In this document: piece by piece, positions 41,843-55,108 of the stretch
How the letters are laid out: each line of letters opens with the position of its first letter
Position numbering within the stretch: position 1 is the first letter of the stretch
Assembly (NCBI RefSeq): GCF_022807995.1
Contig: NZ_CP094351.1
Location: forward strand, 1,519,001 to 1,583,000
Length of the DNA: 64,000 bases
Direction: 5' to 3'
Source: Pseudomonas orientalis
GTDB lineage: Bacteria; Pseudomonadota; Gammaproteobacteria; Pseudomonadales; Pseudomonadaceae
Position numbers and translations under genes: made by a program
The notes under the pieces: model-generated
Database searches by the model: none
What the model saw: only the letters and a program-made list of their open reading frames with translations
What the model was told of the DNA's origin: nothing

Positions 41843-41858
41843 CTGTCAGAATTAACAG
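41843..41858. promoter_or_regulatory. Lux-box-like palindrome, copy a
   Basis: CTGTCAGAATTAACAG; 67 bases upstream of the ATG at 41926. One of five similar palindromes in 41.8-55.1 kb (others at 44382, 46611, 51327, 55093); the right arm has one departure (TTAACAG for TTGACAG). Confidence 0.5.
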
Positions 41859-41925: not shown

Positions 41926-42360
41926 ATGTTCAAACAACTGATCTGCGTGCTTTTGTTGACCGGCTGCGTCATTGATCAAGCGTGGTCGAGGCAGTCTTGT
42001 CCGGATAAATCGATGATCCGAAACGTCAAAGGCTACTTTCAATACCGGCAGGATGGCGTGCTCTGGCAAGGTCCCAAGGTTGAGCCAAACGAATTTATAA
42101 ATCGTTTTCTTGGCGCTGTATTCGCACCTGAAAGGGATGGCGACCAGAAAATTGGCTATGTTGAAAAGTGCGTTTATAAAAACTACCGTGAACAGCAGGT
42201 TGTCTTGCGGCCACGCATTTCGGGCAGTGCAAATAACATGTCACTGACCGACAGCCTGCGCTGGGCTCAAGACAAAGCTTCATTCGAACAACCGGTATAT
42301 GTATGCGAAGACAATCAACCTCATAATTGCGCGTTCGAGATAAATGACCCGCGACGATAG
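41926..42360 (+). CDS. Small secreted protein, possibly DUF3757-like
   Basis: A 144-residue protein with leader MFKQLICVLLLTGCVIDQAWS; the LTGC may be a lipobox, but cleavage at AWS|RQSCP is also plausible. The mature part has cysteines in pairs (SCPDKSMIRNVKGYF, EKCVYKN, YVCEDNQPHNCAFE). The CP-(x)5-IRNVKG-YF pattern recalls the DUF3757 family. No function known. AAGGGAG 5 bases before the start. Confidence 0.6.
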   Translation: MFKQLICVLLLTGCVIDQAWSRQSCPDKSMIRNVKGYFQYRQDGVLWQGPKVEPNEFINRFLGAVFAPERDGDQKIGYVEKCVYKNYREQQVVLRPRISGSANNMSLTDSLRWAQDKASFEQPVYVCEDNQPHNCAFEINDPRR

Positions 42361-44381: not shown

Positions 44382-44397
44382 CTGTTATATCTGACAG
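44382..44397. promoter_or_regulatory. Lux-box-like palindrome, copy b
   Basis: CTGTTATATCTGACAG; 98 bases upstream of the first repeat-protein gene. The flanks (ACCTG at the left) make it the copy closest to a classical las/lux box in its outer bases. Confidence 0.55.
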
Positions 44398-44495: not shown

Positions 44496-46439
44496 ATGTC
44501 TGATTCGAACTCGCCCGCACGACGCAGGCGCGCTCTGCGGCCGCGAACTCCAGGCGCAGATGACCCGACGATACTGGAACTGGACGCTCCGAACCCTTCC
44601 CGGGCATTGCCTTTGGAGTGGGACGAGGCGGCCAGGACTTTGCCGCTCAGCCTCCATGAGCAGGACCTGGAGGTAACGATTGCACAGGTCTGGCCATTCA
44701 ATCTCCATGAGGAGGACATGGAAACGACGGTGGAATATCGTTGGAATGATGTGACAGAGCACACCTTCTGTATTCAGGGCCCATACGACCCTGACGTTAT
44801 ATTCCCATTGGTGCAGTATTTACCCAGGTCGATTCTGTCGAGCGGCGGTATCAGCCGACTGACATTCAGGGTGAGCGCGCCTTTAATCGGCACGACCGAC
44901 TCATTTCCGACCCTGGTCAATGTCGATAAAACGCCGCCAAATGGCGGCAATCCTGGCCCGCAGTTGCAGATTGATGAAGAGGCTCGCGATGAGCTTACCG
45001 ATGATTATCTGGTCAGGCATGGCGGCTTGCCTGTCGAGCTGGCGCGTTGGTTCGATATGCGCATTGGGGATATGTGCCACTTTTTCTACGCAGATCTGCC
45101 AAATTTGGGCTTCGCAGGCACGCTTTTTATTACCAGAGAACACGTCCTCGGCGCGCCCATCCTATACGTCATTCCTGAGGCGCACGTGCGCGCCAGTGGC
45201 CGGGGTGAAAGGTTCGCTTCCTGCCGGCTTGAAGACCGGGCCGGGAACGTCGGGCAGTTTTCCAACGAGATCACGCTCAACGCCTCCCCGGTTGTGTTGC
45301 CGGATTTGCCACGCCCCTTTATTGAGTCGGCTGAACTGGATGGGTTAGTCACTCTGGACGACGTCAGGCAGTGGTTGGCGGTCACGATCACGCGTATAGG
45401 CGAGGCCGAGGCGGGCGACGAGATTCATCCCTTCTGGAACACCCATGCCCTTGAAATCAAGCCGATTGGCGAAGTGCAGACATGGCCGATTCCCGTGAGC
45501 GTGCCGTGGTCCATTGTTGCGGCGGGCGGCTTCTCCACGCGCTACCCGTTACGTGTGCGCTACGTGTATAGGCGAGGCACTGCCTCCAAGGATTCGCCGG
45601 ACAGCTTCTATGAAGTCGATTTGAGGGTGGCCGGCCCTGACCCGACCGGGCCCGATCCGATCAATCGCAAGTTGGCCCTTCCGATTGTGAAAGGCAAGAC
45701 GGGCGACAATGTTCTGACCTCCGCTGACAGCCCGGGGCCCGTGCCTGTGGAGGTGCTCTTGTTTGTAGACCCCACAGTGGGCGAACACTTGGAACTGTGC
45801 TGGAACAGCGATGAGCGTATCGTTGCTATCTATGATGTGCAGCCGGGCGATCATGCCGGGAAATTGATCACCTTATGGGTTTCGTGGGCAGTGGCATCCT
45901 CCATTGCCTTGGCCGAGGTCTATTACTGGACAGATAACGGGATAAACAGGCAGCGCAGTCCCTCTGCTTCGGTGCGGGTGCGTCTTGATACGCTGACCGG
46001 TTTGAAAAGCCCGTTATTACTCAATGACAGCGAACTGGGCTTTATCGCGTGTGGAACCAGGCCGGCGCCATATGAGGGCGTATACATTGGCATACCCTGG
46101 CATGCGATCCATTTCGAGCCTGGCGACACCGTGCATTTATATTGGGCAAGTTACCCGACCAATGACGGCAGTGGTAAACCGTTCCCTGGCACTGAGGTAT
46201 TTTTTGAGCATGAACTGACCAGCGATGATTACGACAGGGGCCATGCGCAAATTCGCATTCTGCCCTTCGACTTGATCACCGCGCCGGGATTGGTACCGGG
46301 CTTTGGCTCGGCGGTCGTACAGTACCGGTTGTTCAAGAGAACGGGCGACACCGGCTTGTCTTCCAGAAAACTCATCTATATCGATTTGAAAATAAGTGGC
46401 GGTGGAACTTGCCTGGGGCCGCATAACGGCAGTGAATAA
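44496..46439 (+). CDS. Large beta-rich repeat protein 1 (Ig-like modules), function unknown
   Basis: A 647-residue protein without signal peptide or membrane segment. An Arg-rich N-terminus (PARRRRALRPR) leads to an internal pair of short repeats (SLHEQDLEVTI and NLHEEDMETTV). From residue 80 there are about four to five modules of 110-130 residues predicted as beta-sandwich, the first ending in TLVNVDKTPPNGG (about 139-151). That sequence recurs in its two paralogues. AAGGAGG lies 8 bases before the start. I recognise no enzymatic motif. It may be a surface or secreted adhesin/toxin component exported by a non-Sec route, or stay in the cell. Confidence 0.7.
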   Translation: MSDSNSPARRRRALRPRTPGADDPTILELDAPNPSRALPLEWDEAARTLPLSLHEQDLEVTIAQVWPFNLHEEDMETTVEYRWNDVTEHTFCIQGPYDPDVIFPLVQYLPRSILSSGGISRLTFRVSAPLIGTTDSFPTLVNVDKTPPNGGNPGPQLQIDEEARDELTDDYLVRHGGLPVELARWFDMRIGDMCHFFYADLPNLGFAGTLFITREHVLGAPILYVIPEAHVRASGRGERFASCRLEDRAGNVGQFSNEITLNASPVVLPDLPRPFIESAELDGLVTLDDVRQWLAVTITRIGEAEAGDEIHPFWNTHALEIKPIGEVQTWPIPVSVPWSIVAAGGFSTRYPLRVRYVYRRGTASKDSPDSFYEVDLRVAGPDPTGPDPINRKLALPIVKGKTGDNVLTSADSPGPVPVEVLLFVDPTVGEHLELCWNSDERIVAIYDVQPGDHAGKLITLWVSWAVASSIALAEVYYWTDNGINRQRSPSASVRVRLDTLTGLKSPLLLNDSELGFIACGTRPAPYEGVYIGIPWHAIHFEPGDTVHLYWASYPTNDGSGKPFPGTEVFFEHELTSDDYDRGHAQIRILPFDLITAPGLVPGFGSAVVQYRLFKRTGDTGLSSRKLIYIDLKISGGGTCLGPHNGSE

Positions 46440-46457
46440 ATGTTGGTGTTTGTTAAG

Positions 46458-46479
46458 AGGGGCGAAAGCCCCTTTTTTT
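46458..46479 (+). terminator. Rho-independent terminator
   Basis: AGGGGC-GAAA-GCCCCT with seven T after it, 18 bases after the repeat protein 1 stop. Repeat protein 2 therefore needs its own promoter. The remaining 46480-46610 is AT-rich and shows no gene. Confidence 0.9.
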
Positions 46480-46610
46480 GTCTGATAAAGATCGACTGCG
46501 ACGGATTTAGATTAAATAGCATCAACGGCGCTGGTTTTTGCGTAAGTAGGCTATTAAAAAACACCCACGCCATGCTTTTAGTTAGAAACACATTTTGTGC
46601 GAGTACGCAG

Positions 46611-46626
46611 CTGTCAAGTTTGACAG
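46611..46626. promoter_or_regulatory. Lux-box-like palindrome, copy c
   Basis: CTGTCAAGTTTGACAG: perfect palindromic arms (CTGTCAA / TTGACAG) with a GT centre. 101 bases upstream of the ATG of repeat protein 2. The right arm contains TTGACA, so it could also provide a -35 box. Confidence 0.6.
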
Positions 46627-46726
46627 GCTGTGCAGTGGGGAAAAAGGGGGTTTAATCAAACGGTCAATCGTCTCGTGCGGCTGGCGATAAATGCAAAGCG
46701 TCTCTTACTCAAAGGAGTATGTAGCA

Positions 46727-48754
46727 ATGGCTAAGTCGAACAATACACAACCCGCTTCAATCGATAAAAAAAGCAGGTCGAGTGCTACGGGGGCTAACTG
46801 TAATCCAAGTAACGGTCCATTGGCACAGCCTGTGCCTCAAGGGCTTGCGCCTCACGCGCCGCGAGCTGTGTCCGACATTGTAGTCACCAATGCCCTGCCC
46901 CCCGAGTCGGGTCTTCCGCCTAACCTGATGGAAACTATCGTCGCGCAAACGGAAGGGGCCAATCTCGAAATTAATATGTGGGAGGATACATTTCCTAATC
47001 CCCTTTCTAACCCGGATATGTTACAGCTCTATCTTAATGGCGTGCCTTACGGAAACCGTCATGATTTTCCCAAACCATTGTCAAGCCTGACGTGGCCCTA
47101 TGAAATTAACATCAAAGGCGATGATATAACCAACCACGGGGAGTATCGCTTAACCTATGAGATTTTTTTGGGGATTGGTGGTAGTGAGCCTTCCGGCCCT
47201 ACTCTGGTGAACGTCGATACGGTGGGCCCTGCCGGCGGTATTTTGTTGGACGCTATTACCTTGGTGGCGGGTGCGGAGGACGGGAAGGTCACGCTGAGTT
47301 CCCTGGCAGCCAATGGCGATGAGCTGACCTGCAGTGTGCCTGGACGCTTGATTGCGCGTCCGCTCGATACACTTCACATCTACAAGACCTATACGGATGC
47401 TGATCCGATAAAAATAATAACAAACTTGCCGCTTGATACATCGCCGATCGAGTTTTCTCTGACCAAGGACGAAGTTGTCGATGGCGGTACACGCGTGGAT
47501 CGTATGGCGTATCGTTACTTTGACTATTCAAAAAACTCAACCATTTATCCGCCAAAACTCAGAGAAGTTGAATATATATTGACGCCGCAACCGGAGAACT
47601 TGAGCGATCCAGCGGTACCGGCGGCGCCGTTGGATCTTCGGGACGCACAATTGAAATTGGCAGAAGTGCATCTTTTCGGCTATGACAATTTCAGATCCGG
47701 CCAGATCGTGCAAATCGAGCTGGTGAGTGCGCTCGGTACTCAGATATTTCCTCACACATTGCTTACCGAGCCTACCCCCACTGACCCAGCGAAAATCGAA
47801 ATTCCCTGGCTCATTCTCTTCGCGATCTATGGAATCAGCGGGCCGGGCACCGCCAGTCTTCGTTACCGTGTGGTAGAGGAGGGCAACCCTTCAGCCTGGT
47901 CCAACACGATCACGGTGGCCGCGGACTTCAGCTCTGCCGCTGGGGACCCAGACGATCCGGGCCCGGTCAGGGATTACCTGCCGTTGGTCACCGTGACGTC
48001 CAGCGAGGGGCTTGTCAATGAAATCGGCCCGGGTGATACCGGCAATGCGACGGCTGAGTTTGATGTGTATCCGGGCGCGGCCGTGGACCACGAGCTTCAG
48101 TGCTACTGGGGAGGGACACCGATTTACCCCTCCCCACGTACCGTGACTCAGGCTGACCTGGACTCGGGGACATTCGCCGTCATTATTACGGCGGCCGTCA
48201 TCGCAGCAGGCGGAAACGAACTGGACAAGAAGGTTTGGTACAGCCTGACGAATGGAGTAAACGCCAACGTGGACACCTCCCAGTCTACGCTGGTCGATGT
48301 ATTTGCCAGCGAGCTGCAGAATTTGACGCCGCCACAGTTCCCCAAGTCTGTAGACGCAGGCGGCGGGCTTCGCTCGATCAGTTGCAAGCAGTCTGTTGAA
48401 CTGGGTATCGATACGAGCATCGTGGACCGGGTCAACTTGAAACAGGATGACACGATCAGGCGCTTCTGGACCCTGTACGGAGAGGGGTTAACGTCCACCA
48501 ACAAGCTCGTCGAAGCGGAAATACTGCCCCCGATTGTGGTGGCAAATGATCATAGCCTGCCCGGCGGTGGGGAGAGTTTCCTCGTGGACTTCGCCACCTA
48601 TGTGCAGCCTGCGATTTTGGGCCGTGTTGAATTCTTTTACACAGTACTCAAGGCCGACGGCGTGACACAGGGCAAGTCGCCCACGACAGTGCTTTATGTA
48701 AGCCGGCGCAATGCCGATAACACCGTTTGCGGCGCCCCGCCCGCTACGCCTTAA
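46727..48754 (+). CDS. Large beta-rich repeat protein 2 (Ig-like modules), function unknown
   Basis: A 675-residue paralogue of repeat proteins 1 and 3. No signal peptide; Asn/Ser-rich leader (MAKSNNTQPASIDKKSRSS). Shared motif TLVNVDTVGPAGG at about 159-171, then more beta-rich modules with IEIPWLILFAIYGISGPGTASLRYRV matching IPVSVPWSIVAAGGFSTRYPLRVRYV in protein 1. AAAGGAG precedes the start. It ends ADNTVCGAPPATP, while protein 1 ends GGTCLGPHNGSE, both with a lone cysteine near the C-terminus. No enzyme motif seen. Confidence 0.7.
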   Translation: MAKSNNTQPASIDKKSRSSATGANCNPSNGPLAQPVPQGLAPHAPRAVSDIVVTNALPPESGLPPNLMETIVAQTEGANLEINMWEDTFPNPLSNPDMLQLYLNGVPYGNRHDFPKPLSSLTWPYEINIKGDDITNHGEYRLTYEIFLGIGGSEPSGPTLVNVDTVGPAGGILLDAITLVAGAEDGKVTLSSLAANGDELTCSVPGRLIARPLDTLHIYKTYTDADPIKIITNLPLDTSPIEFSLTKDEVVDGGTRVDRMAYRYFDYSKNSTIYPPKLREVEYILTPQPENLSDPAVPAAPLDLRDAQLKLAEVHLFGYDNFRSGQIVQIELVSALGTQIFPHTLLTEPTPTDPAKIEIPWLILFAIYGISGPGTASLRYRVVEEGNPSAWSNTITVAADFSSAAGDPDDPGPVRDYLPLVTVTSSEGLVNEIGPGDTGNATAEFDVYPGAAVDHELQCYWGGTPIYPSPRTVTQADLDSGTFAVIITAAVIAAGGNELDKKVWYSLTNGVNANVDTSQSTLVDVFASELQNLTPPQFPKSVDAGGGLRSISCKQSVELGIDTSIVDRVNLKQDDTIRRFWTLYGEGLTSTNKLVEAEILPPIVVANDHSLPGGGESFLVDFATYVQPAILGRVEFFYTVLKADGVTQGKSPTTVLYVSRRNADNTVCGAPPATP

Positions 48755-48766
48755 GTGCATCAAGGT

Positions 48767-48804
48767 ACGAACCGTCATTGGCAGTGGCAGTAATGACGGT
48801 TCGT
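48767..48804. terminator. Strong hairpin after repeat protein 2
   Basis: ACGAACCGTCATT pairs perfectly with AATGACGGTTCGT (13 bp) over a 12-base loop, 13 bases after the stop codon. It lacks a T run; a terminator or mRNA 3' stabiliser is likely. Confidence 0.6.
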
Positions 48805-48998
48805 ATCCTTCGCTCGTTGTAAATACCTATCCGCAATAAACTTGCTACCTACGCATATTTAGGATTAGTCCTACGATCACTGGGACTATGCCTACATGAA
48901 CCTATCCTTCTTGTACGTACCCTTGCCGCTTCTGAAAGCCTGAGTCGATGGTCCTTAAATCGCTTGGCTTGTTCAGTCACCGACTAGAGGTACTTACC

Positions 48999-51251
48999 AT
49001 GACTACTGAAACAACATTTTGTCTTTCTCGCTTATCGCTGGCTATCAAAGTATTGGCTGTGATGCCCATGACATTCGTGGCCACACAGGCCAACGCACTG
49101 AACATCTACCCAGGCCAGAACGTGGTGATAGACGGGGCCTCGCAGGACGATCGGTACGTTGTCAAAGAGGCGACCCTGACGTCCAACGGGGCGAGGATTG
49201 TGGGCGTCCAGGCGCATGATTCCACGTTCACCATGAATGGCGGCACGGTCAAAAATACCGCAGGCAAGGAAGTCGGCGTGGCGCTTTACGGCAGCAAGGG
49301 CACGCTGCGCGATGCTTCCGTATCCAGCGGTGGGGCCGAAGGCATGATTGTCGGCACCCAATCGAATCGTGGCTCGACGGTGGAGGTGTTCGACAGCACG
49401 ATATCCGGCGGCACAGATGGCATCGTGCTCAGTGGCTCGAGCACGCTGGCCTTGAACAACACCCAGGTCAGTGGTGAAAAAGCCGGCTTGAGAGCGTACG
49501 ACGGACAACTCACCGCCCAGGGCGGCCGCATATACGGCGGCACCAACGGGATCGTGGCGTATCGCTTGCCTACGGTGGATAACCCCTCGGTGCTGAACCT
49601 CAACCAGACCGAGGTGGTGGGCGGCACAGGCGCCGCCATCCTGGTGGACTACCCCGGCGGCACCCGGATCAATATCAACGATGGCACCACCCTGAACGGC
49701 GGCAACGGCAACATGCTCGAAATCGACCATGGTGGTGCGGCCGATGTGAATGTGTTCAACAGTGCCCTGAGCGGTAACGTTCAGGTTGGCAAAGACAGCG
49801 CCCTGGACTTGAAGATGGATGCCGCTTTCATGAATGGCGATATCGTCAACAACGGTGGCATTGCTAACGTTGGCCTGAACAACGGCTCGGTGTTGACTGG
49901 ACGCCTGGACAATGTCGATAAACTGTCGGTCAACAGCGATGCCACCTGGGTGATGGTCGACGGGCAGCAGGCGCTCAACGCGTTGTCGATGAATGGCGGT
50001 AACGTCAAGTTCGGCGATTCGGGGGCCTTCTATAAGTTGGATGTAGGCAACCTGTCCGGCACGGGCGGTACGTTCATCATGAAGGCGGATTTTGGCCAGA
50101 TGACCGGTGACTTCCTGAATGTGACGGGCACCTCTTCCGGTGATCATCAGCTGCTGATCGCCAGTACGGGAGCCGATCCGCTGTCCGAGCGCCTGCAGAT
50201 GGTTCACACCGCCGACGGCGTGGCGAACTTCAGCCTGGTGGGTGGGCGGGTCGACCTCGGTACCTATTCATACGACCTCGTGTCCGACAACCAGAACCAT
50301 GACTGGTACCTTGACCCGGATAACAAAATCATCAGCCCAAGCACCAACTCTGTGCTGGCGCTGTTCAACGCGGCGCCGAGTGTGTTGTTGGGTGAAATGA
50401 CCACCTTGCGCACGCGCATGGGTGAACTGCGTTTCAATGGTGGTCAGAGCGCCGGCTTGTGGACGCGCGCCTATGGCAACAAATATGAAGTGTCCAACGA
50501 CAAGACAGGCCTGGGTTATAACCAGAGCCAGCGTGGTTTCACCCTGGGCGCGGATGCGCCGCTGGAGGCCGGCGACGGGCAGTGGTTGATCGGCGTGATG
50601 GCCGGGCACAGTCAGTCGGACCTGGACCTTAACCTGGGCAGCAAAGCGACCATCAACAGTTACTACATGGGTGGCTATGCCACCTGGCTGGACAGCGAGA
50701 GCGGCTTTTACTTCGACGGCGTGCTCAAGTTCAACCGCTTGCACAATGAATCCAATGTCGCCATGAGCGACGGCAAGAAAAGCAAAGGCAACTACACGCA
50801 AAATGCCACCGGCGCTTCGGCGGAATTCGGTCGGCATATCACGCTGGATGACGGTTACTTCGTGGAGCCCTATGGCCAATTGTCGGCGGTAATCACTCAG
50901 GCCCAGAGTTACACGCTGGACAACGGTCTGAAAGCCAAGGGTGACCGTTCAAGTTCGGTCATTGGTGAAGTGGGGGTCACTGCTGGCAACAACATCCAAC
51001 TCGACAGCGGTGGCATCCTGCAGCCTTACTTGAAGGCCGCCGTCAGTCATGAGTTCGACCAGAGCAACAAAGTGTTCGTCAACGACAACGCGTTCAACAA
51101 CGATTTGTCGGGCTCACGGCTGAAACTCGGCGCGGGTGTAGCGATGTCGGTCTCCCAGGAGTTGAGCGTGCATGCGGACGTGGAACGCAGCGTGGGCAAG
51201 AATATCAAGCAACCGTTGGGGATCAATGTCGGGTTGCGCTACGCATTCTAA
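48999..51251 (+). CDS. Type V autotransporter
   Basis: A 750-residue autotransporter. An extended signal peptide ends near residue 33 (VATQANA|LNIY). The passenger (about 34-470) is a right-handed beta-helix of pertactin type with repeated GGT.GI-like rungs (ISGGTDGIVLSGSSTLALNN, IYGGTNGIVAY). A linker follows, then a 12-strand barrel from about residue 485 (SAGLWTRAYGNKYEV, GFTLGADAPL, ending LGINVGLRYAF with C-terminal Phe). No protease or lipase triad is visible in the passenger, so an adhesin is the likely role. It lies between repeat proteins 2 and 3 but has no lux-box-like site. Confidence 0.88.
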   Translation: MTTETTFCLSRLSLAIKVLAVMPMTFVATQANALNIYPGQNVVIDGASQDDRYVVKEATLTSNGARIVGVQAHDSTFTMNGGTVKNTAGKEVGVALYGSKGTLRDASVSSGGAEGMIVGTQSNRGSTVEVFDSTISGGTDGIVLSGSSTLALNNTQVSGEKAGLRAYDGQLTAQGGRIYGGTNGIVAYRLPTVDNPSVLNLNQTEVVGGTGAAILVDYPGGTRININDGTTLNGGNGNMLEIDHGGAADVNVFNSALSGNVQVGKDSALDLKMDAAFMNGDIVNNGGIANVGLNNGSVLTGRLDNVDKLSVNSDATWVMVDGQQALNALSMNGGNVKFGDSGAFYKLDVGNLSGTGGTFIMKADFGQMTGDFLNVTGTSSGDHQLLIASTGADPLSERLQMVHTADGVANFSLVGGRVDLGTYSYDLVSDNQNHDWYLDPDNKIISPSTNSVLALFNAAPSVLLGEMTTLRTRMGELRFNGGQSAGLWTRAYGNKYEVSNDKTGLGYNQSQRGFTLGADAPLEAGDGQWLIGVMAGHSQSDLDLNLGSKATINSYYMGGYATWLDSESGFYFDGVLKFNRLHNESNVAMSDGKKSKGNYTQNATGASAEFGRHITLDDGYFVEPYGQLSAVITQAQSYTLDNGLKAKGDRSSSVIGEVGVTAGNNIQLDSGGILQPYLKAAVSHEFDQSNKVFVNDNAFNNDLSGSRLKLGAGVAMSVSQELSVHADVERSVGKNIKQPLGINVGLRYAF

Positions 51252-51272
51252 GTCGCGCGGGTAACTTGGGCG

Positions 51273-51300
51273 GGCGCCTCCTTCATAGGAAAGGAGGTGC
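51273..51300 (+). terminator. Hairpin after the autotransporter
   Basis: GCGCCTCCTT pairs with AAGGAGGTGC (one G-T pair), 22 bases after the stop. There is no T run, so the strength is uncertain. Confidence 0.5.
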
Positions 51301-51326
51301 TTCCGTTCGTCGGTCAAGTTTAAAAC

Positions 51327-51342
51327 CTGTCAGGTTTGACAG
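51327..51342. promoter_or_regulatory. Lux-box-like palindrome, copy d
   Basis: CTGTCAGGTTTGACAG, with the outer bases AC on the left and TA on the right. 62 bases upstream of the small lipoprotein gene. Arms differ from perfect by one base (CAG versus TTG). Confidence 0.6.
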
Positions 51343-51403
51343 TAGGCGGTTATTTTTTTTTGACGCTAACTGGATGGGCATTCTTTTATATAAGGAGATT
51401 CCC

Positions 51404-51691
51404 ATGGGTTATTCGTTGAAGAAGAAAATGATGCGGGCTGTACCTGGGGTGTTAGTGGCAGCAGGGATGGCAGTGCTGCTCGCCGCGTGTTCCAGCAACC
51501 CTGAAGATATAGGAGTGGATGGTTATCCGAACGTGGATCCACCCTGCACAAGTGCAGGCTATTTCAAAAGCGTAACGCCTGGCTGGTATTACAGGTGCGT
51601 ATACAGCAACAGCATCAATCGTTGGATAAAATATCCGAACCAATGCCCCCCAGGCCAGGAATTTAATCCCGCCACAAGGAAATGCGAATAA
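51404..51691 (+). CDS. Small lipoprotein with CBM14/peritrophin-A-like cysteine pattern
   Basis: A 95-residue protein. The leader MGYSLKKKMMRAVPGVLVAA ends in a lipobox (LLAAC|SS, Cys29). The mature part has four further cysteines: PPCTSAGYF, WYYRCVYSN, YPNQCPPGQEFNPATRKCE. The end, CPPGQEFNPATRKC, and the YYRC before it match the chitin-binding peritrophin-A (CBM14) consensus, which is mainly an arthropod and virus domain. The full domain has six cysteines, so one disulfide would be missing. AAGGAG precedes the start. A strong terminator follows. Confidence 0.65.
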   Translation: MGYSLKKKMMRAVPGVLVAAGMAVLLAACSSNPEDIGVDGYPNVDPPCTSAGYFKSVTPGWYYRCVYSNSINRWIKYPNQCPPGQEFNPATRKCE

Positions 51692-51709
51692 CATAAATGC
51701 CGCATCAAT

Positions 51710-51744
51710 AAGCCTCTCTTCCGTACGGTCGAGAGGCTTTTTTT
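51710..51744 (+). terminator. Rho-independent terminator
   Basis: AAGCCTCTC pairs with GAGAGGCTT over a 12-base loop, then eight T. It ends the small lipoprotein transcript. Confidence 0.88.
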
Positions 51745-51844
51745 TGCAGGATAAGTGCCCCGGGTGGCGCTGAAGCGCGTATCGAATAACGTCCGGGAAC
51801 GTTCCGTGCACAACGCCACTCGGCACCGTTTCAAAAAAATGGAG

Positions 51845-54800
51845 CTATGGAAGTTCTGCCACCAGAATATCATCCAGTGAAAAATTCGCCGGTGACAGCG
51901 TGCTTTTGAAGGAAATACGCAGCGGCAAGTATTGAGACGGAGCCCCGGCCGGCAACGCAAAGTCCAGCTGGTAGGTGTACCAGTTACCCTCGTGAACATA
52001 GACGAAGCTTTTTGACTGACTACCAAACTCAACGAACGCCTGGGGTTGATAAGGAGACAAGTCAACTTTCATTTTGAAACTGATACGGTAGGTTCTAGCA
52101 CTTTTTATAAAAAAGGTTTTAATCACGCCCGGCATGATAGGGCTACCGCCATTGAGCCTTGCATGCCAGTAATTATTGTTATTGAAGTTCCTGATCTCGC
52201 CAAGCCCGTTGATCAAATTGGCCCAACCATTCCAGAAGAACACTTCAAAATCCGTGAAATCAGAGAGGCGCAGCGCTTTGATGAAGTAAGTACTCGACGG
52301 AAAGAGCGTCGCGTTCGCTTCAACAGGACTGTCGGTGTACCCCACTGCGGCCGTCACTTTAACCGTGCTGCCATCGGGAAGCGCAGTGAACCAACCGAGC
52401 TCCGCCGGCTCGCGAACTATACCGTGTTCGGCCTGTTCCTGAGTGATGAGATCGCCGTCAAGCAGCGTTAACGGTTTTGATGCATCAGTGCTGTGGCATT
52501 TGAGCCAGATCAGTTGGTCCTTCCTGCTGAGCAGCCATCTTGCCAGATCCACCCAGCAATAGTTGGTGCTGACTGTATTGAGGTCCAGGACCGAGCCAGG
52601 TTTCAAGCTGTTGAGTATCGGCTGCGGCAGCGGATTGCCGCCCGGTATCTCATCGAAGCCCAGGACGCGCAGGTTCAGCACCCTTGAGTCCCTGGTGGCG
52701 CCGTTTGTCACGTGGTACTGAATACGCAGAACGCTGGCGAGGTGGTAGGCCAGTACCCAGTTGGGAAACACAAATAGCACATAGCCTACGCGCGGGTCGC
52801 CGTATTGAGGCTCAATGGTCGGCAGGGCGATACCGGGCCTGCCTGTCAACTCGAGTTTAATAAAGTCCCTGTCAGACATTGCAAACTGCACCCGAACGGT
52901 CACATTTGGCGTGCTGTCGGCAATTTTCGGATCAATCGTAGCGTTTTCGTCGTCCAGAGGCGTGCTGTTATAAACCAACGGCGCGGGGAGATCATGCGCG
53001 GCGATGATTTTCATGGGGACGATTTGCGAACGGCGCGCTACGTATGACCGTACACGCTCGTAGGAAATATCCATCTGTTTATTGGGTTTGATGTAGCCAA
53101 GTTCGACCTTGAATGGCAGGTCCCGACCCTCCCAGAAGGAGTCGATTGGGAAGGGTTGTGAGGGTGCGTCTCCTCCAGGCGCGTCACCTCTTGCATACAA
53201 GATGACGGTATCTCCGTCTTTGATATCGGGGTTGGCGCGGACCCAAATGTTGGCCCGTTCGGACGTCCCTACGTCAAACTCGTAATCGGGCGGCGGAGCC
53301 TCGTCGATTTCCGGCGCGGGCAGGGCGGCATATCGCGCATCAATATAAACCGTTGTTATCGGAGATAGATGTTGACCCTCGGCAGTTATCGTGTACCAGA
53401 TTTTCAGGGTGCCACCCGTGAGCAGGGCAATAGGCACGCCCAGTTCCCGGATAAGCTCAAAGGACACTTGACCGGAGCCGACTTTGTCGAGCCTCTTATC
53501 GTAGTAATTGTGCCCAGGGGACTTGCCCAGCACATGGAGTTCGATTTTGTCGTAGTAACTGAAACCGTGAACTTCAATGTCGACATGCACTTGGGTTAGA
53601 TCATCAGGAATTCGTCCGTTGACGGCCTCCCGCACTTTGGGCGCGCGAAGGCCTCCGGAGGCGGCGCCGGTCACGTAGACTTCCGTGATAAAGGAGCCTA
53701 GATTCGGCTCGTTGTAACGGATTCGTTCATATTGAAGGAAACTACGACCGCCAGTCAGAGGCTCCAGGTCGATTACAGGGCATGGAATTCTAAGCAGTCG
53801 CGATGTAGTGGATTGCAGCGGGTCTGAACTGTAGATTTTCCTCACCGGTAACCCAGCCGCCGTGCCGTTGAGGCGTACCCTGATCACATCGTTAATGGCA
53901 TAGTTGCGAGGTTCGATCGAAACGAGGATCGTCACTGTCGGGCCGGTCACCTTGCTCAGGTCGAGTTTGCCGTCTTCGTCAGCCTCCAGGAAGTGGCAAG
54001 CCGGCAACAAGTATTTTGACTCATCGTCCAGGTAGACTTGGAGGTATTCGGCCTCCGACCAACCGTCGGAAGGGTTGCCAACTTCATCTTCCACGCTGAA
54101 CAAGCAAGCGTGAGAACCGTAGCCGATGCTTCGCCAATCGCTTTCACACACTTCAATGACGATGTCCTCGTAGGTTCCAACCTCTTCCGGCAGTACAGTG
54201 CGCTTGATGGTGAAGTCACCGATTTTCAGGTGAATAACATCACGTACTGCCCGATGAGTGGGCGGGGGCAACGAAGTGTCGGCGGGGTAGGAAGGAATTC
54301 CGATGGCTATGCACTTGCCATTGCTGATGTCCGTCCCGGTGATGCCGTCTTGCAGATACTTCGGGTCAATGACCGGCTTGCGCAGGTTCGGGTTTACAGG
54401 GTGAGGGCTGGCCGGGTTTTCCCCGCCGGGCTGGCGTGTATCGACCTTAAGTAAGGTTTTTCTTGTTTCTCCAACGGCTTGGCCGAGACGCGTCACTTTA
54501 ATGTATGCGGAAACCAAACCATCGGAGATCACCGACTGCGGTACGAACAAAACTATCAATTGGTGGCCGTCAAGGTGTTGCTTCTGGATGATCGTATGCG
54601 CAACGGGTTTCTCAAGGGTTCCCCAATAACATTCCGCATCGTCCAACTCGGCCGCCCCCAGAAAGGGCAATAGGGCGATCAACAACCCTTCCTCCTGCGA
54701 CATGACCGCGATGCGGTTGATACCTGCGTCAACGCCCTGCACCCCTGGGGTGCGTGCCGGTATGTACAGTGTCAGGTCTGAGAGCGGCACGCTTTCTCCG

Positions 54801-54991
54801 GCCTTTATCGAATTCAAGGTGGCATCGGAGGGCGGGGGGACCAGGTAACGCGTGTCGATGTGGGACCGCCGTGCAGACGGTGTCTTTTTTCTTTCCTCCT
54901 GCGTGGAAGAGGGCGGGGCGGACAGTGATTGCTGCTCTGAATGCTCGGTCAGGTGTTGGCCGGATGGTGAAGACTCTTCATTGTTAGCCAT
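51845..54991 (-). CDS. Large beta-rich repeat protein 3 with C-terminal jelly-roll-like domain
   Basis: A 1048-residue paralogue on the opposite strand, the longest of the three. The N-terminus is Ser/Glu/Gln-rich (MANNEESSPSGQHLTEHSEQ) with no signal peptide. The shared motif TLLKVDTRQPGG lies at about 179-190, followed by some six more beta-sandwich modules. The last 150 residues differ: FTDFEVFFWNGWANLING, HARLNGGSPIMPG, RTYRISFKMKVDLSPY, ending FSLDDILVAELP. This looks like a carbohydrate-binding jelly roll (CBM/galactose-binding-like fold); its ligand cannot be named. It is alone on its strand; downstream is the lipoprotein gene, convergent. Confidence 0.7.
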   Translation of the reverse strand: MANNEESSPSGQHLTEHSEQQSLSAPPSSTQEERKKTPSARRSHIDTRYLVPPPSDATLNSIKAGESVPLSDLTLYIPARTPGVQGVDAGINRIAVMSQEEGLLIALLPFLGAAELDDAECYWGTLEKPVAHTIIQKQHLDGHQLIVLFVPQSVISDGLVSAYIKVTRLGQAVGETRKTLLKVDTRQPGGENPASPHPVNPNLRKPVIDPKYLQDGITGTDISNGKCIAIGIPSYPADTSLPPPTHRAVRDVIHLKIGDFTIKRTVLPEEVGTYEDIVIEVCESDWRSIGYGSHACLFSVEDEVGNPSDGWSEAEYLQVYLDDESKYLLPACHFLEADEDGKLDLSKVTGPTVTILVSIEPRNYAINDVIRVRLNGTAAGLPVRKIYSSDPLQSTTSRLLRIPCPVIDLEPLTGGRSFLQYERIRYNEPNLGSFITEVYVTGAASGGLRAPKVREAVNGRIPDDLTQVHVDIEVHGFSYYDKIELHVLGKSPGHNYYDKRLDKVGSGQVSFELIRELGVPIALLTGGTLKIWYTITAEGQHLSPITTVYIDARYAALPAPEIDEAPPPDYEFDVGTSERANIWVRANPDIKDGDTVILYARGDAPGGDAPSQPFPIDSFWEGRDLPFKVELGYIKPNKQMDISYERVRSYVARRSQIVPMKIIAAHDLPAPLVYNSTPLDDENATIDPKIADSTPNVTVRVQFAMSDRDFIKLELTGRPGIALPTIEPQYGDPRVGYVLFVFPNWVLAYHLASVLRIQYHVTNGATRDSRVLNLRVLGFDEIPGGNPLPQPILNSLKPGSVLDLNTVSTNYCWVDLARWLLSRKDQLIWLKCHSTDASKPLTLLDGDLITQEQAEHGIVREPAELGWFTALPDGSTVKVTAAVGYTDSPVEANATLFPSSTYFIKALRLSDFTDFEVFFWNGWANLINGLGEIRNFNNNNYWHARLNGGSPIMPGVIKTFFIKSARTYRISFKMKVDLSPYQPQAFVEFGSQSKSFVYVHEGNWYTYQLDFALPAGAPSQYLPLRISFKSTLSPANFSLDDILVAELP

Positions 54992-55092: not shown

Positions 55093-55108
55093 CTGTGAGA
55101 GTTGACAG
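55093..55108. promoter_or_regulatory. Lux-box-like palindrome, copy e
   Basis: On the minus strand CTGTCAACTCTCACAG, 101 bases upstream of repeat protein 3. The right arm has one departure (CTCACAG). The spacing to the start equals that of copy c and its gene. Confidence 0.5.

Follow-up and report, generated by a model that had tools for sequence, protein, structure and literature searches.

A stretch of 64,000 nucleotides of the Pseudomonas orientalis chromosome (hereafter the window, to which plain coordinates refer) encodes three large proteins, A, B, and C, grouped with an autotransporter and a small lipoprotein. The locus raises the question of what these proteins share and what, beyond proximity, ties their genes together. 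A sequence-only reading of the window had proposed a single family of leaderless beta-repeat proteins arranged around the autotransporter.

Three leaderless proteins without a Pfam or NCBIfam family

On re-checking, the three open reading frames, their sizes, and the motif that they share were recovered as first described:

44496..46439, forward strand: gene A, leaderless beta-sandwich array protein of 647 aa
46727..48754, forward strand: gene B, leaderless beta-sandwich array protein of 675 aa
51845..54991, reverse strand: gene C, leaderless array protein of 1048 aa with a C-terminal CBM4/16-like jelly roll (about residues 917–1048)

Sequence comparison shows a clear relationship between A and B, and profile comparison joins C to them, in agreement with the single family proposed earlier. 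Only a broad profile made the latter link: the A/B profile matched the C profile at 98.3% (E 1.7e-14), while narrow-profile comparisons did not connect C with B. Structure prediction and fold matching returned FN3/Ig-like sandwiches for B at low confidence; weak models of this kind support the suggested beta-sandwich array design. The carbohydrate-binding-like C-terminal domain attributed to C is supported by the fold match of a low-confidence model to a CBM4/16-like jelly roll, but not by Pfam, a scan of which gave C no match, so that the cut-off of CBM_4_9 (PF02018) was not reached. None of the three is covered by a Pfam or NCBIfam model, consistent with the initial reading of the locus as a candidate undescribed system; A produced a single sub-threshold match in a Pfam/NCBIfam scan at E values of up to 1. 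Close relatives of B, where named in databases, are labelled hypothetical; 2 of 12 homologs of C are annotated as carbohydrate-binding; and none of the open-access titles and abstract openings searched names any of the three proteins.

An N-terminal hydrophobic segment, the mark of a Sec-type adhesin, was sought in A, B, and C and found in none, using a hydrophobicity measure that is a heuristic and not a signal-peptide predictor; by this measure the reported lack of a signal peptide holds. The nearby autotransporter, lipoprotein, and DUF3757 protein do have a hydrophobic N-terminus, unlike A, B, and C.

Relatives of B occur in 55 of 298 Pseudomonas genomes, its own included; these genomes are related, and counts across them are therefore not independent. 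Two B relatives adjoin in about 10 other Pseudomonas genomes, in line with the proposed clustering of family members. Protein searches from B returned the same 13 close proteins, also with a broad alignment, since scoring was confined to candidates with most words in common. Searching its own genome with B recovered B itself as the only match; this search missed even A and therefore leaves room for further paralogs.

A palindromic promoter element in and around the cluster

A 16-letter palindrome, CTGTCA-N4-TGACAG, with zero or one mismatch lies upstream of A, B, C, and two of their neighbors, a lipoprotein gene and a DUF3757 gene. This box, first spotted by eye upstream of B and the lipoprotein gene and then located at A, C, and the DUF3757 gene, is a promoter element that the sequence-only reading had overlooked. 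The neighbors and the boxes are as follows:

41926..42360, forward strand: DUF3757 protein, 144 aa (Pfam PF12582, E 1.9e-14)
48999..51251, forward strand: autotransporter with Pertactin and Autotransporter domains; no box
51404..51691, forward strand: small lipoprotein with a CBM_14 (peritrophin-A, chitin-binding) domain
41843..41858, forward strand: box of the DUF3757 gene, one mismatch, with an upstream CCGTTTGTCGGTA element, 75 bp before the gene
44382..44397, forward strand: box of gene A, one mismatch, about 106 bp before the ATG
46611..46626, forward strand: box of gene B, exact, about 108 bp before the ATG
51327..51342, forward strand: box of the lipoprotein gene, exact, about 69 bp before the ATG
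55093..55108, reverse strand: box of gene C, one mismatch, with an upstream ACCGTTGGTCGGTA element, about 109 bp before the ATG

The DUF3757 gene lies outside the stretch to which the cluster had originally been assigned. Its product scores 54.4 bits against a Pfam cut-off of 23 and has an N-terminal hydrophobic segment (hydrophobicity 2.97); the protein is likely exported, and its boxed gene is likely co-regulated with the others. The lipoprotein, of 95 residues and with an N-terminal hydrophobicity of 2.81, matches CBM_14 at E 4.1e-5 (24.1 bits, cut-off 22.1), a domain otherwise typical of animals; judging from its promoter, it too is likely co-regulated with A, B, and C. A lipoprotein-like gene in genome G218 (L144) is also boxed, with CBM_14 at 23.8 bits.

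Upstream of the autotransporter no box was found, the best candidate having three mismatches, whereas the lipoprotein and DUF3757 genes are boxed. The autotransporter was accordingly dropped as a co-regulated partner and is probably a bystander of the co-regulated set; of the original interpretation, the single family of leaderless sandwich proteins stands, and the system built around the autotransporter is not supported. The autotransporter, which sits within the cluster, also has a weak BafA-type C-terminal match, far below the cut-off of that model.

The whole genome (5.85 Mb) contains 20 box sites with at most one mismatch, five of them within the 13.3 kb of the cluster (P 9e-10). All five are kept in P. 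fluorescens PfR 37 and in P. orientalis DSM 17489, the latter matching B at 96%. Six of the other 15 sites have a plausible target at 60–130 bp: protein D, a response regulator, an ORF of 66 aa, a pair of small ORFs lying between flhB and flhA, and a thioredoxin-like protein similar by eye to a thioredoxin-type protein whose gene is boxed in genome G212. The remaining nine of the 20, at which only ORFs of at least 120 codons were listed, have no assigned target, and one of them (L008) lies about 90 bp before a hydrolase-like gene. The two flhB–flhA boxes are 310 bp apart (L027:5301-5626), each before a small ORF (74 and 58 aa); the same spacing is seen between two boxes of genome G168.

Protein D, of 906 aa from its ATG and leaderless by eye, is encoded by a gene (L026:9000-11717, reverse strand) that immediately follows that of a giant nonribosomal peptide synthetase. 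The C-terminus of D gives a weak Pfam CBM_4_9 match (E 0.0093, below the cut-off), and a narrow-profile comparison found no link to C, leaving the two statistically unlinked. Likeness to CBM4/CBM16 modules thus takes two forms here, the fold of the C-terminal domain of C and this weak match in D; C differs from those modules in having no Pfam match.

The letters CTGTCA also form the half-site of the Pho box, and the boxed genes could on that ground be supposed to answer to phosphate. However, the second half is inverted (TGACAG) where a Pho box would have a direct repeat 11 bp on, and we give phosphate control almost no credence.

Position of the box in the promoter

Alignment of 51 gene-oriented box sites—in which one row (L074) was mispicked, two (L075 and L135) represent one place, and some are near copies—shows the palindrome together with a 3′ TAG on most. 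A −10-like element follows, with T in 30/51 rows at +40, A in 30/51 at +43, and T in 30/51 at +44, counted from the box start; no −35 hexamer at normal spacing was found in these promoters. The −10-like element falls about 34 bp downstream of the box center, which would then lie near −43, where a class II activator is expected to bind. Inside the palindrome, the letters CA....TG vary little and are not rich in TA. Just upstream of many box sites stands ACCGTTnGTCGG or its reverse complement. The pattern GTCGGWACTGTCANNNNTNACAG, built from the promoters of three genes (C, the DUF3757 gene, and the regulator gene described below), has exact matches at those three promoters only in the 5.85 Mb genome.

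Distribution of the box across Pseudomonas

Among B relatives in other Pseudomonas, a box with no more than two mismatches was found within the 450 bases around the ORF start at 16 of the 29 best loci and was absent at the other 13; the same search of equal-length stretches inside genes gave 1 of 102. Boxed relatives include ones at 25–30% identity to B. A fixed pattern, CTGTNANNTNTGACAGTA, occurs in 177 of the 298 genomes, at 0–25 matches each (a fully symmetric place may be counted twice), and its reversed control in 3, with one match in each. The pattern was present in 15 of 17 genomes chosen from the 55 with B relatives; the exact box pattern is absent from 19 of those 55.

These distributions bear on whether any common system exists. 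The three proteins could be separate entities beside an autotransporter, with the palindromes a repeat or a product of chance; the flhB–flhA pair initially looked repeat-like, and the nine sites without an assigned target would fit such a view. Yet the reversed control is missing from 295 of 298 genomes, distant B relatives retain the box at a frequency far above that of the intragenic control, and A/B and C are joined by profile homology, which together render this explanation very improbable.

Thirty-eight site loci were sampled for the genes that follow: 18 in genome G044, 15 in G212 (all those listed there), and five for the eight matches of G218. An ORF start lies 37–225 bp from the box at all 38, a figure obtained without a control and with the direction picked by the analyst where ambiguous. 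Of the genes found by rule near these sites, 28/33 encode products without a strongly hydrophobic N-terminus (mean below 2.0). Eight of 30 products scanned exceeded a Pfam cut-off (ricin-B lectin, T2SSE, Ig-type domains in two proteins, thioredoxin, SET, CBM_14, and DUF6252), and 22 have no family name. The boxes of these three genomes appear to precede mostly leaderless, unnamed proteins. The SET match belongs to a small protein of G212 (L142:2619-3131; 24.3 bits, cut-off 22.4); SET-domain proteins are unusual in bacteria. The boxed T2SSE gene of G044 is the head of a type II secretion operon, whose pseudopilins and secretin were recognized by eye. Between this operon and a divergently transcribed gene lie two boxes (3293 and 3359; L224, G044:C11:222000-239500); the small product of that gene has a hydrophobic N-terminus.

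A boxed EvgA-type regulator and its kinase

The boxed response regulator gene lies 0.5 Mb from the A–B–C cluster:

G000:C1:2107220-2107843: response regulator gene, Response_reg and GerE domains, box 61 bp upstream

With these two domains, and with EvgA as its nearest solved protein, the product is of the EvgA/BvgA type. After it comes, in this genome, a gene for a hybrid kinase composed of two tandem SBP_bac_3 (solute-binding), PAS, HisKA, HATPase_c, and REC domains; no Hpt domain was seen in the examined locus, which ends inside the receiver domain. A P-type ATPase gene, recognized by eye, stands by the regulator gene here and in genomes G053, G108, and G044.

Related regulators were sorted into three types at thresholds chosen after the matches had been seen (type I, at least 76% identity; type II, E 1e-66; type III, at least 79% identity). 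Type I, found in 46 genomes, failed by itself to account for box genomes such as G044, G037, and G212, and types II and III were added. A box with at most two mismatches precedes 29 of the 30 type I genes examined (our own included; the thirtieth locus, L176, could not be placed) and all 30 of the type II genes examined; for the two types together this amounts to 59 of 60 loci, at 59–140 bp upstream, against 0 of 120 control stretches. No box stands before any of the seven type III genes, a count of seven genomes that leaves out five more at 57–60% identity, one of them in the boxless genome G071. Likewise, none was found before the gene of a 64% paralog in the box genome G105 or of paralogs in the boxless genomes G071, G216, G003, G130, and G007. 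Since the type III genes and the G105 paralog are unboxed, autoregulation is not general.

Regulators of types I–III occur in 122 of the 177 box genomes versus 2 of the 121 boxless ones (Fisher 7e-37, relatedness ignored), and the other 55 box genomes have none at the thresholds used. When the threshold is relaxed to E ≤ 1e-45, 252 of 298 genomes contain related regulators; the sorting by box presence therefore depends on the thresholds chosen.

Given that the same palindrome also precedes the regulator gene, the regulator likely turns the boxed genes on together. We consider it probable, on these genomic grounds, that A, B, and C form one regulon switched on by an EvgA/BvgA-type response regulator, and we infer that they, the other boxed genes, and the regulator constitute one positively autoregulated two-component regulon. 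What ties the cluster genes together is a shared promoter element and, presumably, one response regulator.

The box of the regulator gene could instead mark it as the target of another factor. Lux and las boxes have the geometry CTGT-N8-ACAG, which the box fits; as a lux-type box it would occupy a class II position, and the genome encodes four Autoind_bind proteins and one LuxI. An AHL-responsive or LuxR-solo regulator might then run the regulon, with the two-component regulator merely one of its targets. This reading came first and lost weight because the luxI and luxR loci are unboxed and the EvgA-type gene is boxed: the loci of the four LuxR genes and luxI (L032–L036) contain no box (best three mismatches) in a check covering the CTGTCA-N4-TGACAG box in this genome's loci, and the EvgA-type gene, boxed at nearly all type I and II loci, tracks the presence of the box. 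We regard it as unlikely.

A third regulator, either another NarL-type protein or a LexA-like repressor, may alternatively read the box. The outer letters TACTGT-N8-ACAGTA resemble the LexA consensus (SOS box), and both the box genomes in which no regulator passed the thresholds and the unboxed type III genes would suit such a factor. Against a repressor of this kind, however, stand the largely fixed inner letters CA....TG, which are not TA-rich, and the −10-like element 34 bp from the box center without a normally spaced −35, an arrangement that fits an activator; we judge a third regulator quite unlikely.

A model for the proposed regulon

An autoregulated two-component regulon making species-specific, mostly leaderless, beta-rich proteins would be the simplest account of these data. 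In the proposed scheme, the BvgS-like hybrid kinase would sense a small molecule through its two periplasmic solute-binding domains and phosphorylate the EvgA-type regulator; the phosphorylated regulator would bind the box at about −43, acting there as a class II activator, and would simultaneously increase its own production and that of the whole boxed set. Most members of the set are predicted to be cytoplasmically made proteins with affinity for glycans or other surfaces, and a small number, among them the chitin-binding-type lipoprotein, to be genuinely exported. Leaderless members might be released by lysis or, in the one species where its operon is boxed, by a co-regulated type II system. 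A broader version would give the whole genus a two-component-controlled arsenal, differing between species and under one box, of leaderless proteins (Ig-like, lectin, and small beta-rich), along with a dedicated and undescribed export route for signal-less beta-sandwich proteins; it seems doubtful to us, though worth keeping in view.

Comparison with known systems

EvgAS and BvgAS offer the closest parallel in layout, with a NarL-type regulator beside a hybrid kinase that contains two SBP_bac_3 domains, PAS, and a receiver. The binding sites of EvgA and BvgA differ from CTGTCA-N4-TGACAG, and so does the predicted output, which here consists of leaderless beta-sandwich proteins.

LecA and LecB of P. 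aeruginosa are leaderless cytoplasmic carbohydrate-binding proteins under quorum-sensing control with a lux-type box. They resemble the present set in being leaderless, in being, as predicted for that set, cytoplasmic carbohydrate binders, and in the geometry of the box; the folds differ, as presumably does the regulator.

Roc and TtsS/TtsR of P. aeruginosa and P. paraeruginosa likewise combine NarL-type regulators with SBP_bac_3 kinases (PMC12051241). Roc targets the cup operons and lepBA, and TtsR controls the Txc type II system (PMC12051241); the passages of that study drawn on here mention neither the present box sequence nor leaderless array proteins. A possible parallel with TtsS/TtsR lies in the boxed type II operon of G044. 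However, ttsR stands beside txc, whereas the regulator gene described here has as neighbors its kinase gene and, recognized by eye, one for a P-type ATPase: no type II operon was found in the 7 kb around it, and the boxed type II operon of G044 lies elsewhere in that genome. The letters of the box, in four spellings, appear in no paper of the open-access literature searched; in the relevant passage of PMC11543582, half-site letters occur in primers only.

Three orphan proteins thereby join a set whose members can be enumerated from sequence in 177 of the 298 Pseudomonas genomes tested, and most of its sampled products (22 of 30) lack a family name. If the leaderless array proteins are indeed exported, the route would be new. 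The regulator, the box, and the periplasmic-sensor kinase are now testable, and the conditions under which these proteins are produced and the targets that they bind are therefore open to experiment.
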